Of a stretch of 42,375 nucleotides of DNA, positions 29,994 to 34,597 are shown in pieces. Every line of letters begins with the position of its first letter. The stretch's first letter is position 1. The notes below the pieces were generated by a model that searched no databases, was not told where the DNA came from, and was given only the letters and a program-made list of their open reading frames with translations. The stretch is from Pelagibacteraceae bacterium AG-325-C03. Lineage in GTDB: Bacteria; Pseudomonadota; Alphaproteobacteria; Pelagibacterales; Pelagibacteraceae. The stretch lies in assembly GCA_003283025.1 (NCBI GenBank), contig QBYC01000004.1:1-42375 (forward strand). The letters are read 5' to 3'. The position numbers and the translations under genes were made by a program.

Positions 29994-30488
29994 ATGGCGA
30001 GAATCACTGTAGAAGATTGTTTAGAAAAAGTTAAAAATCAATATGATTTAGTTCTTTTAGCGAAAGAAAGAACTGTACAATTAAACGCAGGATCTCCATT
30101 GTTAGTTGAAGAAGATAACGACAAAAGAACTATTATTTCATTGAGAGAAATTGGTGATGGAAAAATTGATGTTAAAGAAATCGAAGCTAGTGCTATTAAA
30201 AGACTTAGAAAAGAACCAGATGAAATTGAACAACAAGATGAAATAGAGGAAGAAACAAATGATGATTTTGAAAATTTATATAAAGGACAGGTTTCTAAAA
30301 GCGGTGTTGCAATTTTACCATCAAAACGAACTAGAAGAATACCTGAGATTAAGAAACCTAGTTTAGTTGATGAAGCTTTATCAGAATTAAAAGCAGAACA
30401 ACCAGAAATTAATGAAGAAAACTTAGATACAGAAGAAGCTCCGCTTGAATTGAGCGAGGAAGCTACAACTGACGATGAAACTAAATAA
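29994..30488 (+). CDS. rpoZ: RNA polymerase omega subunit with an acidic extension
   Basis: 164 aa. The omega domain occupies residues 1-75: MARITVEDCLEKVKNQYDLV, AKERTVQLNAG and a region in which the ASAIKRL block follows. It is a folding chaperone for beta'. The rest (about 76-164) is very rich in Glu and Asp, disordered by composition, with only one basic segment (SKRTRRIPEIKKPS). Alphaproteobacterial omegas carry C-terminal tails, but this one is long and acidic. It converges with the CaiB-family gene, overlapping its end by eight bases. Confidence 0.9.
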   Translation: MARITVEDCLEKVKNQYDLVLLAKERTVQLNAGSPLLVEEDNDKRTIISLREIGDGKIDVKEIEASAIKRLRKEPDEIEQQDEIEEETNDDFENLYKGQVSKSGVAILPSKRTRRIPEIKKPSLVDEALSELKAEQPEINEENLDTEEAPLELSEEATTDDETK

Positions 30489-31623
30489 ATTCTTTTATTA
30501 TTTTTTCTCTATGTTCGTCTAAGTCCGGAATGTCACCTCTTGAAATAGAGTCTTTATAGTTAGAAAGCTTAATTGGATTACCAGCCAGTCGAAAATTGCC
30601 AATCCCTTTATGATATGCGCTTACAATCATATTTCTTGCTTTTACTTGATCGTTTTCTACAGCCTCTTTAATATTATTAATCGGTCCGCATGGAATTTTT
30701 TTAGGTGTTAATTCTTTAATCCACTCAGTGGTCGTTTTTCTTACTAAAATATCCTCAAAAATTATTTTTAGTTGATTCATATTCGAACATCTTTTTTCGT
30801 TTGACATAAACCTATCATCTTTAACCAAATCTTTTATTTCTAACGCTGAACATAATTCATTAAATAATTTATCGTTACCTGCAGCAATAATTATATAGCT
30901 ATCTTTTGTTTTAAAAGCCTCAAAAGGAGCTATCGAAGGGTGTCTAGAACCCATAGGCTTAGGAATTTCATTTTTAGATAGATATCTTGCGATCGCATTC
31001 TCTAAAATAGCAATTTGACAATCTAACATTGAAACATCAATAAACATTCCCTTTCCTGTTTTTTTTCTATCATAAAGAGCTGCATTAATACCTATAGCTG
31101 TAAAAAGTCCCGCTGTGATATCACCAATTGAAGTACCTACTCTTGTAGGTTCAGAGTCTGGTTGTCCTGTAACACTCATTAATCCACCCATACCTTGAAC
31201 AACCATATCATAAGCTGGTAAATCTTTGAGAGGTCCAGTTTGTCCGAAACCAGATGCAGAAGCATAAATTAATTTTGGGTTTTTTTTCTTAACATCGTTC
31301 CATCCATAACCCCATTTTTCTAAAGTACCTGGTTTAAAATTTTCTACTAAAATGTCTGCTTTAATTAATATCTTTTCAAAAATTTTTTTATCCTCCTGTT
31401 TTTTTAAATTTAATGCGATACTTTCTTTACCTCTATTTAAAGACATAAAATAGGCAGATTGATTATCAATAAATGGTCCAAATTTCCTAGAGTCATCTCC
31501 TGTATCAGGAGCTTCAACTTTAATTACTCTTGCTCCTAGATCTGAAAGTATCATAGTGCAATATGGTCCGACTAAAACCCTTGTTAAGTCTAAAACTAAT
31601 AAATTTTTTAAAGGGCCATTCAT
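30481..31623 (-). CDS. CaiB/BaiF (class III) CoA transferase
   Basis: 380 aa from the ATG at 31623 (MNGPLKNLLVLDLTRVLVGP). The longer frame to 31665 has a non-family N-terminus and would run through the dctP promoter. CoA-site blocks: GARVIKVEAPDTGDDSR (about 30), MSLNRGKESIALNLK, and the catalytic Asp in LPAYDMVVQGMGG (about 153-165). It moves CoA between carboxylic acids without a covalent Cys; substrates unknown. It is divergent from the TRAP operon. Some members activate dicarboxylates such as malonate or succinate, which would fit the neighbours. Confidence 0.88.
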   Translation of the reverse strand: MNGPLKNLLVLDLTRVLVGPYCTMILSDLGARVIKVEAPDTGDDSRKFGPFIDNQSAYFMSLNRGKESIALNLKKQEDKKIFEKILIKADILVENFKPGTLEKWGYGWNDVKKKNPKLIYASASGFGQTGPLKDLPAYDMVVQGMGGLMSVTGQPDSEPTRVGTSIGDITAGLFTAIGINAALYDRKKTGKGMFIDVSMLDCQIAILENAIARYLSKNEIPKPMGSRHPSIAPFEAFKTKDSYIIIAAGNDKLFNELCSALEIKDLVKDDRFMSNEKRCSNMNQLKIIFEDILVRKTTTEWIKELTPKKIPCGPINNIKEAVENDQVKARNMIVSAYHKGIGNFRLAGNPIKLSNYKDSISRGDIPDLDEHREKIIKEFI

Positions 31624-31651
31624 AATTAAGTATATCAACAAAATACGTCTG

Positions 31652-31680
31652 TTGACTCTTATCAATATCTTTCATTTAAT
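31652..31680 (+). promoter_or_regulatory. Promoter of the dctP transporter operon
   Basis: TTGACT (31652-31657), a 17-bp spacer and TTTAAT (31675-31680) form a near-consensus sigma-70 promoter. It is followed by a strong ribosome site (GGGGGA near 31697) before the ATG at 31711. It is the clearest promoter pattern in the window. Confidence 0.6.
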
Positions 31681-31710
31681 GGAATATAAATAATATAGGG
31701 GGAACAAATA

Positions 31711-32721
31711 ATGATTAAAAAAATATCTTTATTTTTAACTTCATTAGTTTTTGCATTCTTTACTATTGGAACGTCTTACGCTGAAACTTTAAAAGCTAGT
31801 CACCAATGGCCAGGAACACCAAGAGCTGATGGATCATTCGACCCTCGTCATGAAATGGTACAAATTATAGCTGACGAGGTAAAAAAAGCTAACGTTGGAA
31901 TAGATATAAGAATTTATCCAGCAAAGTCTTTATATAAACCAAAAGAACAATGGAAACCAATGACTACAGGTCAGCTAGATATTTCTGCTTTCCCGTTAGC
32001 ATATGCTTCAAAATTTCACCCAGAGTTTGACGCAACATTGATGCCTGGAACAGTAAAAAATCACAAACACGCACTAAGATTTAATAAAGGTCCTATGATG
32101 ACTGAAATTAAAAAAATTATAAATGATGCTGGCGTTGTGGTTTTATCTGATGCTTGGTTAGGCGGTGGTTTTGCCTCAAAAAGCAAATGTATCAAAAATC
32201 CTAGCGATGCAAAAGGTCAGGTTATGAGAGCAGCAGGAAAAGCATTCAATCAAATGCTAGAAGCTGCAGGCGCAGGAATTCAAAGTATGCCTTCTTCTGA
32301 AATCTATACTGGTCTTCAAACAGGAGTTTTGACTGGGGCAAATACTAGTTCAGGAAGCTTTGTGAGTTATAAAATTTATGAGCAAGTGAAATGTGCTACG
32401 CCTCCGGGAAAATTTGGTTTATGGTTTATGTATGAACCTATTCTAATGTCTAAAAAATCTTATGACGCATTAAGCTCAAAGCAGCAGAAAGCTTTAATGA
32501 AAGCTGGAAAAGTTGCTGAAAAATATATGACTGCTCAAGTAGAAAACTTAGATAAAAAATTTGAGGACGCATACAAAGCTGCAGGTGTAGAATTAGTGTA
32601 CATGGATGCTAAAGATCATGCAGCGTGGGTTGAAATTGCAAAAAAATCTTCCCATAAAGCATTTGCTGAAAAAGTTCCAGGTGGCGACAAGCTAATGGAA
32701 ATGGCTTTAGCAGTAAAATAA
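31711..32721 (+). CDS. dctP: TRAP transporter solute-binding protein
   Basis: 336 aa. Signal peptide MIKKISLFLTSLVFAFFTIG ending in SYA before ETLKASHQW. DctP-type layout: ISAFPLAYASKFHPEFDA (about 91-108), GGFASKSKCIKNPSDAKGQV (about 152-171), and the invariant carboxylate-binding Arg in GQVMRAAG (about 170-177), then QTGVLTGANTSSG. It binds an organic acid in the periplasm and delivers it to DctQM. Likely expressed well above the membrane parts because of the promoter, ribosome site and downstream hairpin. Ligand not readable. Confidence 0.93.
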   Translation: MIKKISLFLTSLVFAFFTIGTSYAETLKASHQWPGTPRADGSFDPRHEMVQIIADEVKKANVGIDIRIYPAKSLYKPKEQWKPMTTGQLDISAFPLAYASKFHPEFDATLMPGTVKNHKHALRFNKGPMMTEIKKIINDAGVVVLSDAWLGGGFASKSKCIKNPSDAKGQVMRAAGKAFNQMLEAAGAGIQSMPSSEIYTGLQTGVLTGANTSSGSFVSYKIYEQVKCATPPGKFGLWFMYEPILMSKKSYDALSSKQQKALMKAGKVAEKYMTAQVENLDKKFEDAYKAAGVELVYMDAKDHAAWVEIAKKSSHKAFAEKVPGGDKLMEMALAVK

Positions 32722-32735
32722 AATACTATATAAAG

Positions 32736-32770
32736 AACCCCTGTTTAATTTTTAAACAGGGGTTTTTTTT
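32736..32770 (+). terminator. Intercistronic hairpin between dctP and dctQ
   Basis: AACCCCTGTTTAA (32736-32748), a TTT loop and TTAAACAGGGGTT (32752-32764) form a perfect 13-bp stem, followed by T up to 32770. The dctQ ATG is at 32771. It should end most dctP transcripts and protect their 3' ends. Its GGGG arm is also the only ribosome-site-like sequence for dctQ. Confidence 0.85.
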
Positions 32771-33262
32771 ATGAAAAACAAATATTTAAATTTTTGTAAT
32801 TTAATGTCAAAAGCTTGTGGAACTTTTGCAGTTATAGCTCTACTATTATCTATTTTAATTATAGTGGAACTAGTATTTGAGAGATATTTTTTTCAGAGAC
32901 CAATTACTTGGCAAACAGAATTAGTGACTATGTTATTAGTTGCATCTACTTTTATAGGAAGTGCTTATGTACTCAGTGAGAAAGCTCATGTGAGTATGGA
33001 GTGGATATATGACTTTTTATCTAAGAAAAATATTTTAAGATTAAAAATATTTACTTCTTTTCTAAGTTTAATATTTTTTTTGATTTTGTTTTATTTTGGT
33101 TTTTTAATGGTTGAGGAAGCTTTTACTAAAAATTATTCAACTGGTACAGTTTGGGATCCTCCATTATGGATACCTTATTCTTCTATGATGATTGGAGCAA
33201 TACTGATGATTTTTCAGTATATTGCTGAGATAATAAAATTGATAGATGAAAAGGAGCTTTAA
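32771..33262 (+). CDS. dctQ: TRAP transporter small permease
   Basis: 163 aa with four membrane helices (about 15-35, 50-72, 93-116 and 133-155), the DctQ pattern. Motifs FQRPITWQTEL and FIGSAYVLSEKAHVSMEWI (about 58-76) are characteristic. It forms the accessory half of the DctQM membrane unit. Its start is directly after the T-tract of the dctP hairpin, so translation competes with the fold. An AAGGAG ribosome site for dctM lies at its very end. Confidence 0.9.
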   Translation: MKNKYLNFCNLMSKACGTFAVIALLLSILIIVELVFERYFFQRPITWQTELVTMLLVASTFIGSAYVLSEKAHVSMEWIYDFLSKKNILRLKIFTSFLSLIFFLILFYFGFLMVEEAFTKNYSTGTVWDPPLWIPYSSMMIGAILMIFQYIAEIIKLIDEKEL

Positions 33263-33265
33263 TAA

Positions 33266-34597
33266 ATGGATCCATTGATTATAGCTATAATTGTTGCAAT
33301 ATTTACTTTAGTAGTTCTTTTCTCAGGAATACCTATCGCTTTTGGTTTAAGTTTTGTCTCTGTTGTTTTACTAATTGCATTTGAAGGTATTCAGATGCTT
33401 GATGTGTTTGCAGAAACGTTCTATGCAGGTCTTAACTCTTTTGTTTTGTTATCTATACCAATGTTTATTTTGATGGGTATGGCAGTTGCTAATTCACCTG
33501 CCGGTAAAGATTTGTATACTGGATTAGATAGATGGTTGTGGAGGTTACCCGGCGGTTTAGTCATATCCAATATAGGGGCATGTTCTGTATTTGCAGCTCT
33601 TAGCGGCTCTAGTCCAGCGACTTGTGCAGCAATTGGAACAATGGGAATTCCCGAAATGCGTAAAAGAGGTTATTCTGATCAAATTGCAACAGGAACAATT
33701 GCAGCAGGAGGTACATTAGGAGTATTAATTCCACCAAGCATAGTTTTAATTGTTTATGGGATCGCAACTGGAACTTCTATAGGTAGATTATTCTTATGTG
33801 GTTTAATCCCAGGTTTTATGTTAGCCGGCATGTTTGCTTTATGGGCTTATATACATAGTTATTTCATCGACAAAGATTCTGCTAGAGCATTGAAAAATAG
33901 AAAACCACCTACTTTAAAAGAAAAAATTGAAGTGTTACCAAGAATTTTGCCATTCTTAGCAATCATATTCGGGGTTCTATATGTTTTGTATGGAGGCGTA
34001 GCCACTCCCTCTGAGGCCTCAGGAGTAGGCGCGTTTTTAGTATTTGTGATGATAGCTTTGGTTTACAAAATTTATCAGCCGAAAAAGATATGGAATATTG
34101 TTAAAGTTTCCATGAAAGAAAGTGTAATGATTATGTTTATCATTGCAGCTTCATATTTATTTGCATTCACATTATCTCAACTATACGTAACACAATCCTT
34201 AGCTCAAAGCATGATAGAATTAAGTTCAAATAAGTGGGTAATTTTTATTCTAATAAATATTTTTTTACTTGTTGCCGGTTTTTTTTTACCACCGGTTGCA
34301 GTTATAGTAATGACTTCTGCAATATTATTGCCTGTGATCACAACACTTGGTTTTGATCCTTATTGGTTTGCAATAGTGTTTACAATAAATATGGAAATTG
34401 GTTTAATTACACCACCTGTTGGACTTAACCTTTACATAATCAAAGGTATCACACCTGATGTAAGTTTATCTGAAATATTGAAAGGCTCAATACCTTTTAT
34501 GATAATAATGGCTATAGCAATTGTTATATTGTGTATTTTTCCAGAAATTGTCACTTGGTTGCCAGATAAAGTAATGGGTAAAGCACTTGGATATTAA
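33266..34597 (+). CDS. dctM: TRAP transporter large permease
   Basis: 443 aa with about 12 membrane segments. Family blocks: FGLSFVSVVLLIAFEGIQML, SGSSPATCAAIGTMGIPEMR (about 113-132), GGTLGVLIPPSIVLIVYG (about 147-164), and near the C-terminus VFTINMEIGLITPPVGLNLY. The duplicated glycine/proline hairpins carry the ion and substrate path. It works with DctQ and is driven by a sodium or proton gradient. It overlaps the dusA start by eleven bases. Confidence 0.93.
   Translation: MDPLIIAIIVAIFTLVVLFSGIPIAFGLSFVSVVLLIAFEGIQMLDVFAETFYAGLNSFVLLSIPMFILMGMAVANSPAGKDLYTGLDRWLWRLPGGLVISNIGACSVFAALSGSSPATCAAIGTMGIPEMRKRGYSDQIATGTIAAGGTLGVLIPPSIVLIVYGIATGTSIGRLFLCGLIPGFMLAGMFALWAYIHSYFIDKDSARALKNRKPPTLKEKIEVLPRILPFLAIIFGVLYVLYGGVATPSEASGVGAFLVFVMIALVYKIYQPKKIWNIVKVSMKESVMIMFIIAASYLFAFTLSQLYVTQSLAQSMIELSSNKWVIFILINIFLLVAGFFLPPVAVIVMTSAILLPVITTLGFDPYWFAIVFTINMEIGLITPPVGLNLYIIKGITPDVSLSEILKGSIPFMIIMAIAIVILCIFPEIVTWLPDKVMGKALGY

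Follow-up and report, generated by a model that had tools for sequence, protein, structure and literature searches.

In the ABC importers of Ruminiclostridium cellulolyticum, stem-loops located after the binding-protein genes give rise to monocistronic upstream mRNAs, as seen on Northern blots, with termination of 21-96% and with effects on mRNA stability; E. coli is predicted to have 15 stem-loops of this kind (PMC9045158). RNA elements are also known from SAR11 bacteria themselves. The SAM-V riboswitch of Candidatus Pelagibacter, a pseudoknot that binds a ligand, has a bistable helix covering a Shine-Dalgarno sequence (PMC6061858), and the rhtB element of Candidatus Pelagibacter ubique is a bulged hairpin with a conserved loop and bulge, found near rhtB and proC, about half of whose examples carry a tract of 6-9 U that was read as a possible terminator (PMC2704228). 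In SAR11 cells the periplasm is crowded with binding proteins (PMC8437039), and the literature that we found does not spell out how these gene-dense genomes with few promoters set the excess of binding protein over permease. Our search found no paper on SAR11 terminators at binding-protein genes or on a dctP-dctQ stem-loop.

The stretch of DNA analysed here (the window, 42,375 nt) comes from a SAR11 genome (Pelagibacteraceae; 50 contigs, 972 kb). At 31711-34597 it carries adjacent genes for the TRAP transporter binding protein DctP and the permease subunits DctQ and DctM (Pfam PF03480, PF04290 and PF06808), a dctPQM-type operon in which dctP lies directly 5' of the co-directional translocator genes (Table 1). 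The gap between dctP and dctQ measures 49 nt and reads AATACTATATAAAGAACCCCTGTTTAATTTTTAAACAGGGGTTTTTTTT, followed by the ATG. Just upstream of dctP, the divergent gene at 30481-31665 (reverse strand) appears by eye to be of the CaiB/BaiF CoA-transferase type, which may hint at the substrate pathway.

Table 1. Features of the dctPQM operon and of the dctP-dctQ junction (window coordinates).
Feature	Position	Strand	Basis
AGGGGG, strong Shine-Dalgarno-like site of dctP	31697..31702	+	sequence; anti-SD duplex -9.3 kcal/mol, top 2% of genome
dctP, TRAP-type periplasmic substrate-binding protein, 336 aa with signal peptide	31711..32721	+	Pfam PF03480 E 5e-42; NCBIfam TRAP_S1
dctP stop codon TAA	32719-32721	+	sequence
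Extended hairpin, predicted A-U pairing of upstream UAUAUAAAG with U-tract and start codon	32727..32773	+	MFE and centroid structure
Core hairpin of the putative terminator, 13 bp, loop UUU	32736..32764	+	sequence, fold, covariation
5' arm AACCCCTGTTTAA	32736-32748	+	sequence
Loop TTT	32749-32751	+	sequence
3' arm TTAAACAGGGGTT, 13 perfect pairs with 5' arm	32752-32764	+	sequence
AGGGG in 3' arm, possible masked Shine-Dalgarno site of dctQ	32758..32762	+	sequence; duplex -6.0 kcal/mol, top 9%
U8 tract of the putative intrinsic terminator, abuts dctQ ATG (32771)	32763..32770	+	sequence
dctQ, small TRAP permease subunit	32771..33262	+	Pfam PF04290 E 5e-27; N-terminus MKxKYLxFC conserved in relatives
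dctM, large TRAP permease subunit	33266..34597	+	Pfam PF06808 E 3e-95

The initial annotation had described a perfect 13-bp stem in this gap and an AGGGG within its 3' arm, 8 nt before the dctQ ATG, and both are exactly as described. With 13 bp, including 5 G-C pairs, a loop of 3 nt and a run of eight U, the junction has the layout of an intrinsic terminator. The RNA of 32715-32800 folds at -24.9 kcal/mol, compared to -9.9 +/- 2.6 kcal/mol for shuffled sequences (n=200; z -5.7; 0 of 200 as good), and the hairpin is therefore not a product of chance; these energies, like the others given here, take no account of co-transcriptional folding or proteins. Extending the folded RNA by 200 nt upstream does not alter the structure, and the pair probabilities are at least 0.97 for 12 of the 13 pairs. 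The extended fold covers the dctQ AUG weakly, and a similar A-U extension of the hairpin is found in most genus-level relatives.

In its position directly 3' of the binding-protein gene and 5' of the translocator genes, the element resembles the internal terminators of PMC9045158. Its stability falls within their range (-10 to -38 kcal/mol), its U-rich tail exceeds 5 U, as in their Type I, and the U-tract is likewise A-U paired with upstream sequence. It differs in belonging to a SAR11 TRAP operon, where termination is a prediction, in a U-tract that ends at the next start codon and in a 3' arm containing a possible Shine-Dalgarno site. With SAM-V it shares a helix over a Shine-Dalgarno sequence in SAR11, although here the helix is one perfect stem whose loop varies, with neither a ligand site nor an alternative fold; with the rhtB element it shares a conserved SAR11 hairpin, although the latter is not tied to a binding-protein/permease junction. 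Since the survey of PMC2704228 was aimed at long intergenic regions, a gap of 49 nt was probably outside it.

Orthologous junctions were taken from assembled genomes, comprising 80 loci with DctM 93-97% identical and the junctions fetched after a family-wide search in which DctQ was matched in 114 of 397 genomes and 6 of 14 genera; 148 junctions were read, 98 of them distinct, and the two collections may share genomes. Within the window's genus only 2 of 151 genomes carry the operon, whereas it is common in a sister genus, which suggests patchy loss or transfer. The relatives consequently come mostly from other genera. A stable dctP-dctQ hairpin (-16.1 to -28.0 kcal/mol) was present in all 98 distinct junctions, which span several Pelagibacteraceae genera. 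As hairpins picked by their pairing make pair counts for closer and distant relatives partly circular, the fair test is covariation on a sequence alignment. Across 29 diverse aligned junctions, pairing held in 97.4% of the cells of 11 pairs, 7 of the 11 pairs had changed on both sides, and the covariation score was 0.355, against 0.174 when shuffled (0 of 500 as high); sliding by 1-3 columns lowered it to 0.102 or less. The universal folding of these junctions and their compensatory changes indicate that the RNA stem is under selection.

How much else is conserved depends on the distance of the relative. In the 84 closer relatives (DctQ identity at least 58%), the CCCC/GGGG base of the stem is almost invariant, the stem stops 7-11 nt short of the ATG and T always makes up 6-8 of the next 8 nt; AGGGG or GGGGG stands 7-11 nt before the ATG in 83 of them. 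The 13 distant relatives (DctQ identity below 46%) keep a hairpin of quite different sequence, 10-32 nt from the ATG, with a 3' arm that ends in ACTGG, GCCAG, ACCGG and the like and, in 8 of the 13, a short T-run (3-5 of 8); orthologs of one genus (g5, e.g. L210, L211, L215 and L217) have the hairpin without a long U-tract. The loop is not conserved among relatives. These comparisons suggest that the hairpin is the deepest-conserved part of the junction, since it persists where sequence, T-run, spacing and AGGGG differ, and that the AGGGG beside the ATG is a trait of the closer group. Conservation in relatives, which the initial annotation had proposed as a check, is thus borne out for the pairing and, among the closer orthologs, for the AGGGG; most of the 13 distant orthologs have lost the AGGGG while keeping the hairpin.

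We also read nearly the whole of the source genome, calling genes by a simple codon model, on which the gene starts rest, and scoring hairpins in all co-directional gaps. The hairpin definition was revised after a first scan had missed the dctP-dctQ target, whose stem reaches into the U-tract. The limits on hairpin score and gap length were set with this genome already in view and then applied unchanged to a complete genome of another genus (G153), which is the cleaner test of enrichment because the limits had been set on the first. In the source genome, 12 of 80 co-directional gaps of 40-100 nt have a strong hairpin, 10 of them after binding-protein genes (10 of 11 binding-protein gaps against 2 of 69 other gaps, p 4e-10), and in G153 the corresponding counts are 11 of 13 against 5 of 86 (p 2e-9). 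Together with the 98 of 98 orthologous junctions, this is the conservation and enrichment after binding-protein genes expected of an internal terminator like those of PMC9045158. The ten hairpin-bearing genes encode three DctP proteins, one protein of TAXI/NMT1 type, one Peripla_BP_4, two Peripla_BP_6, and one each of SBP_bac_3, SBP_bac_8 and NMT1 (Pfam), and transporter genes lie downstream, in one case (contig C3) after a short gene that precedes the permease. Most paralogous junctions also have 6-8 T after the stem. At least one binding-protein gene per genome with a 40-100 nt gap has no hairpin (one in the source genome), and no clear terminator was seen after two further binding-protein genes of the source genome whose gaps, 18 and 296 nt, fall outside the tested range. 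One exception is consistent: an SBP_bac_3 gene followed by a permease gene is without a hairpin in both genomes (contig C8, 18528-19316, reverse strand, L102; G153 712169-712936).

At four G153 binding-protein genes (400677-401804, 541591-542565, 818010-819407 (+) and 823586-824413 (-)), 7-10 nt separate the end of the hairpin from the next start. Their arms read CGCCC, AGGCC, GCCTG and TCGCC, none of them Shine-Dalgarno-like, and their T-runs vary in quality; among the five G153 start-abutting hairpins after binding-protein genes, AGGGG occurs in the dctP ortholog only. Judged from these two genomes, the dctP-dctQ element exemplifies a layout that is general in SAR11.

The junction is best explained, with a probability of roughly 0.78, by a partial intrinsic terminator, doubling as a 3' stabiliser, that follows the binding-protein gene inside the dctPQM operon and leaves the binding protein in excess; the reasons are a strong stem and U8 inside an operon, after a gene whose product is needed in excess. 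Most RNA polymerases would stop in the U-tract and yield a dctP-only mRNA, which would end in a stable hairpin that resists 3' exonucleases, whereas a minority would read through so that DctQM is made, with a large excess of DctP over DctQM as the outcome. In the read-through mRNA the same hairpin would lie inside the dctQ initiation region and probably make dctQ translation still weaker, an incidental effect of the compact junction and not a regulated switch. The terminator giving more binding protein than permease, as first proposed for this junction, is well supported by comparison, namely by the 98 orthologs, by recurrence in two SAR11 genomes and by experimental precedent elsewhere, while termination itself, partial read-through and the protein ratio are what we infer from the layout. 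Since the hairpin persists although a long U-tract is missing in the g5 orthologs and at a UgpB-like/permease junction, termination may be neither its sole nor its oldest role.

The UgpB-like (SBP_bac_8) junction (L114:18009-18060), where the perfect hairpin CAGGGGCGAAAGCCCCTG is followed by TTATAATT in place of a U-tract, also speaks for a hairpin that acts mainly as a 3' stabiliser, such that dctPQM mRNA is cut or degraded from the 3' side and the stem blocks exonucleases, leaving stable dctP mRNA with little termination. The short T-runs in 8 of 13 distant orthologs, which the hairpin has outlived, point the same way, and intercistronic hairpins are known stabilisers, as in the Rhodobacter capsulatus puf operon, to judge by a title cited in PMC6238624. 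However, the 6-8 T of 8 after the stem in the target and its 84 closer orthologs, and at most paralogous junctions, are the textbook layout of a terminator, and we consider a mainly stabilising role distinctly unlikely. A complete terminator for dctP with a separate promoter for dctQM would also suit the strong stem and long U-tract, and there is a weak promoter-like match at 32696-32724. A start from this match would still transcribe the hairpin, however, and the U-tract touches the ATG and leaves no room downstream; the region holds fewer promoter-like matches than its shuffled versions (14 vs 22.5). A dctQM promoter of its own was rejected on that count, so that a promoter for dctQ inside dctP, the objection that the initial annotation had itself raised, finds no support, and this explanation is very improbable.

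The initial annotation had further proposed a dual lock, in which the hairpin both ends dctP transcripts and buries the dctQ AGGGG on read-through mRNA until something melts the stem. Its structural half is sound as a prediction. The GGGG is paired with a probability of 1.0, AGGGG stands at the good Shine-Dalgarno spacing of 8 nt, and opening AGGGG would cost 18.9 kcal/mol and the whole site 22-24 kcal/mol (22.1 for -13..+12 of dctQ); with 23.6 kcal/mol for -18..+12 against a median of 5.9, dctQ is the hardest to open of 835 ATG starts. Opening the U-tract and start alone (-8..+12) costs 8.5 kcal/mol (rank 40) and the AUG alone 2.0 kcal/mol. Given these costs, initiation on AGGGG would be nearly impossible while the stem stands and initiation without it is conceivable; a lock of 19-22 kcal/mol makes the AGGGG almost unusable, and dctQ probably starts without it. 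This is not odd here because clear anti-Shine-Dalgarno matches are found at just 15% of starts (6% of control positions) in the source genome, for which the standard anti-Shine-Dalgarno sequence was assumed, as the 16S tail motif was not found in the incomplete genome. The statement that dctQ has no other ribosome-site-like sequence is correct for the 8 nt that remain ahead of its ATG, and matters less since most genes in this genome have no Shine-Dalgarno site. The only nearby alternative dctQ start, Met12, was rejected, being conserved in 3 of 65 relatives.

Masking is thus structurally real in the predicted fold, and the stem is likely in principle to damp dctQ translation, while a purposeful lock of the ribosome site is poorly supported. 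The retention of AGGGG or GGGGG in 83 of 84 closer relatives and the use of Shine-Dalgarno occlusion by SAM-V in SAR11 (PMC6061858) favor such a lock. Yet the GGGG is no better conserved than the 5' CCCC, a sequence with no part in ribosome binding, so that stem strength explains the conservation and the fixed GGGG is in itself no proof of a Shine-Dalgarno role; the distant orthologs have lost both AGGGG and the close spacing, and the arms of the four other G153 start-abutting hairpins suggest that the masked AGGGG probably arises incidentally from the position of the G-rich arm. Nor does the melting switch find support, since there is no competing fold within 200 nt (arm-to-flank duplexes -5.6 to -9.3 vs -19.1 kcal/mol for the stem), no conserved loop and no known RNA family, the Rfam scan of the hairpin giving only chance matches below the gathering score; neither an alternative open state nor a ligand-binding part was seen. 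Antiterminator pairing with dctP or dctQ sequence was also considered and rejected, as none was competitive. As a whole, the dual lock appears improbable. It is still unlikely, though conceivable, that the hairpin sets the ratio of binding protein to permease twice, first by ending most transcripts in its U-tract and then, as that tract makes up the entire leader of the permease gene, by damping with its stem the translation of each mRNA that reads through; the start-abutting terminator would then be a recurrent compact device of streamlined SAR11 genomes, with initiation on the U-tract rather than on a Shine-Dalgarno site.

The survey suggests a simple rule, that where a binding-protein gene precedes transporter genes across a gap of 40-100 nt, a strong hairpin nearly always lies between them; this rule accounts for most strong operon-internal hairpins in both genomes and makes the question of stoichiometry directly testable. 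The remaining hairpins follow, for example, proteorhodopsin, OmpA-family lipoprotein and sodium symporter genes, some of which are probably highly expressed. In both genomes a proteorhodopsin gene (L099:9124-9894, on contig C6 of the source genome; G153 369389-370165) is followed by a strong terminator hairpin before a co-directional gene, possibly the same expression-ratio device.
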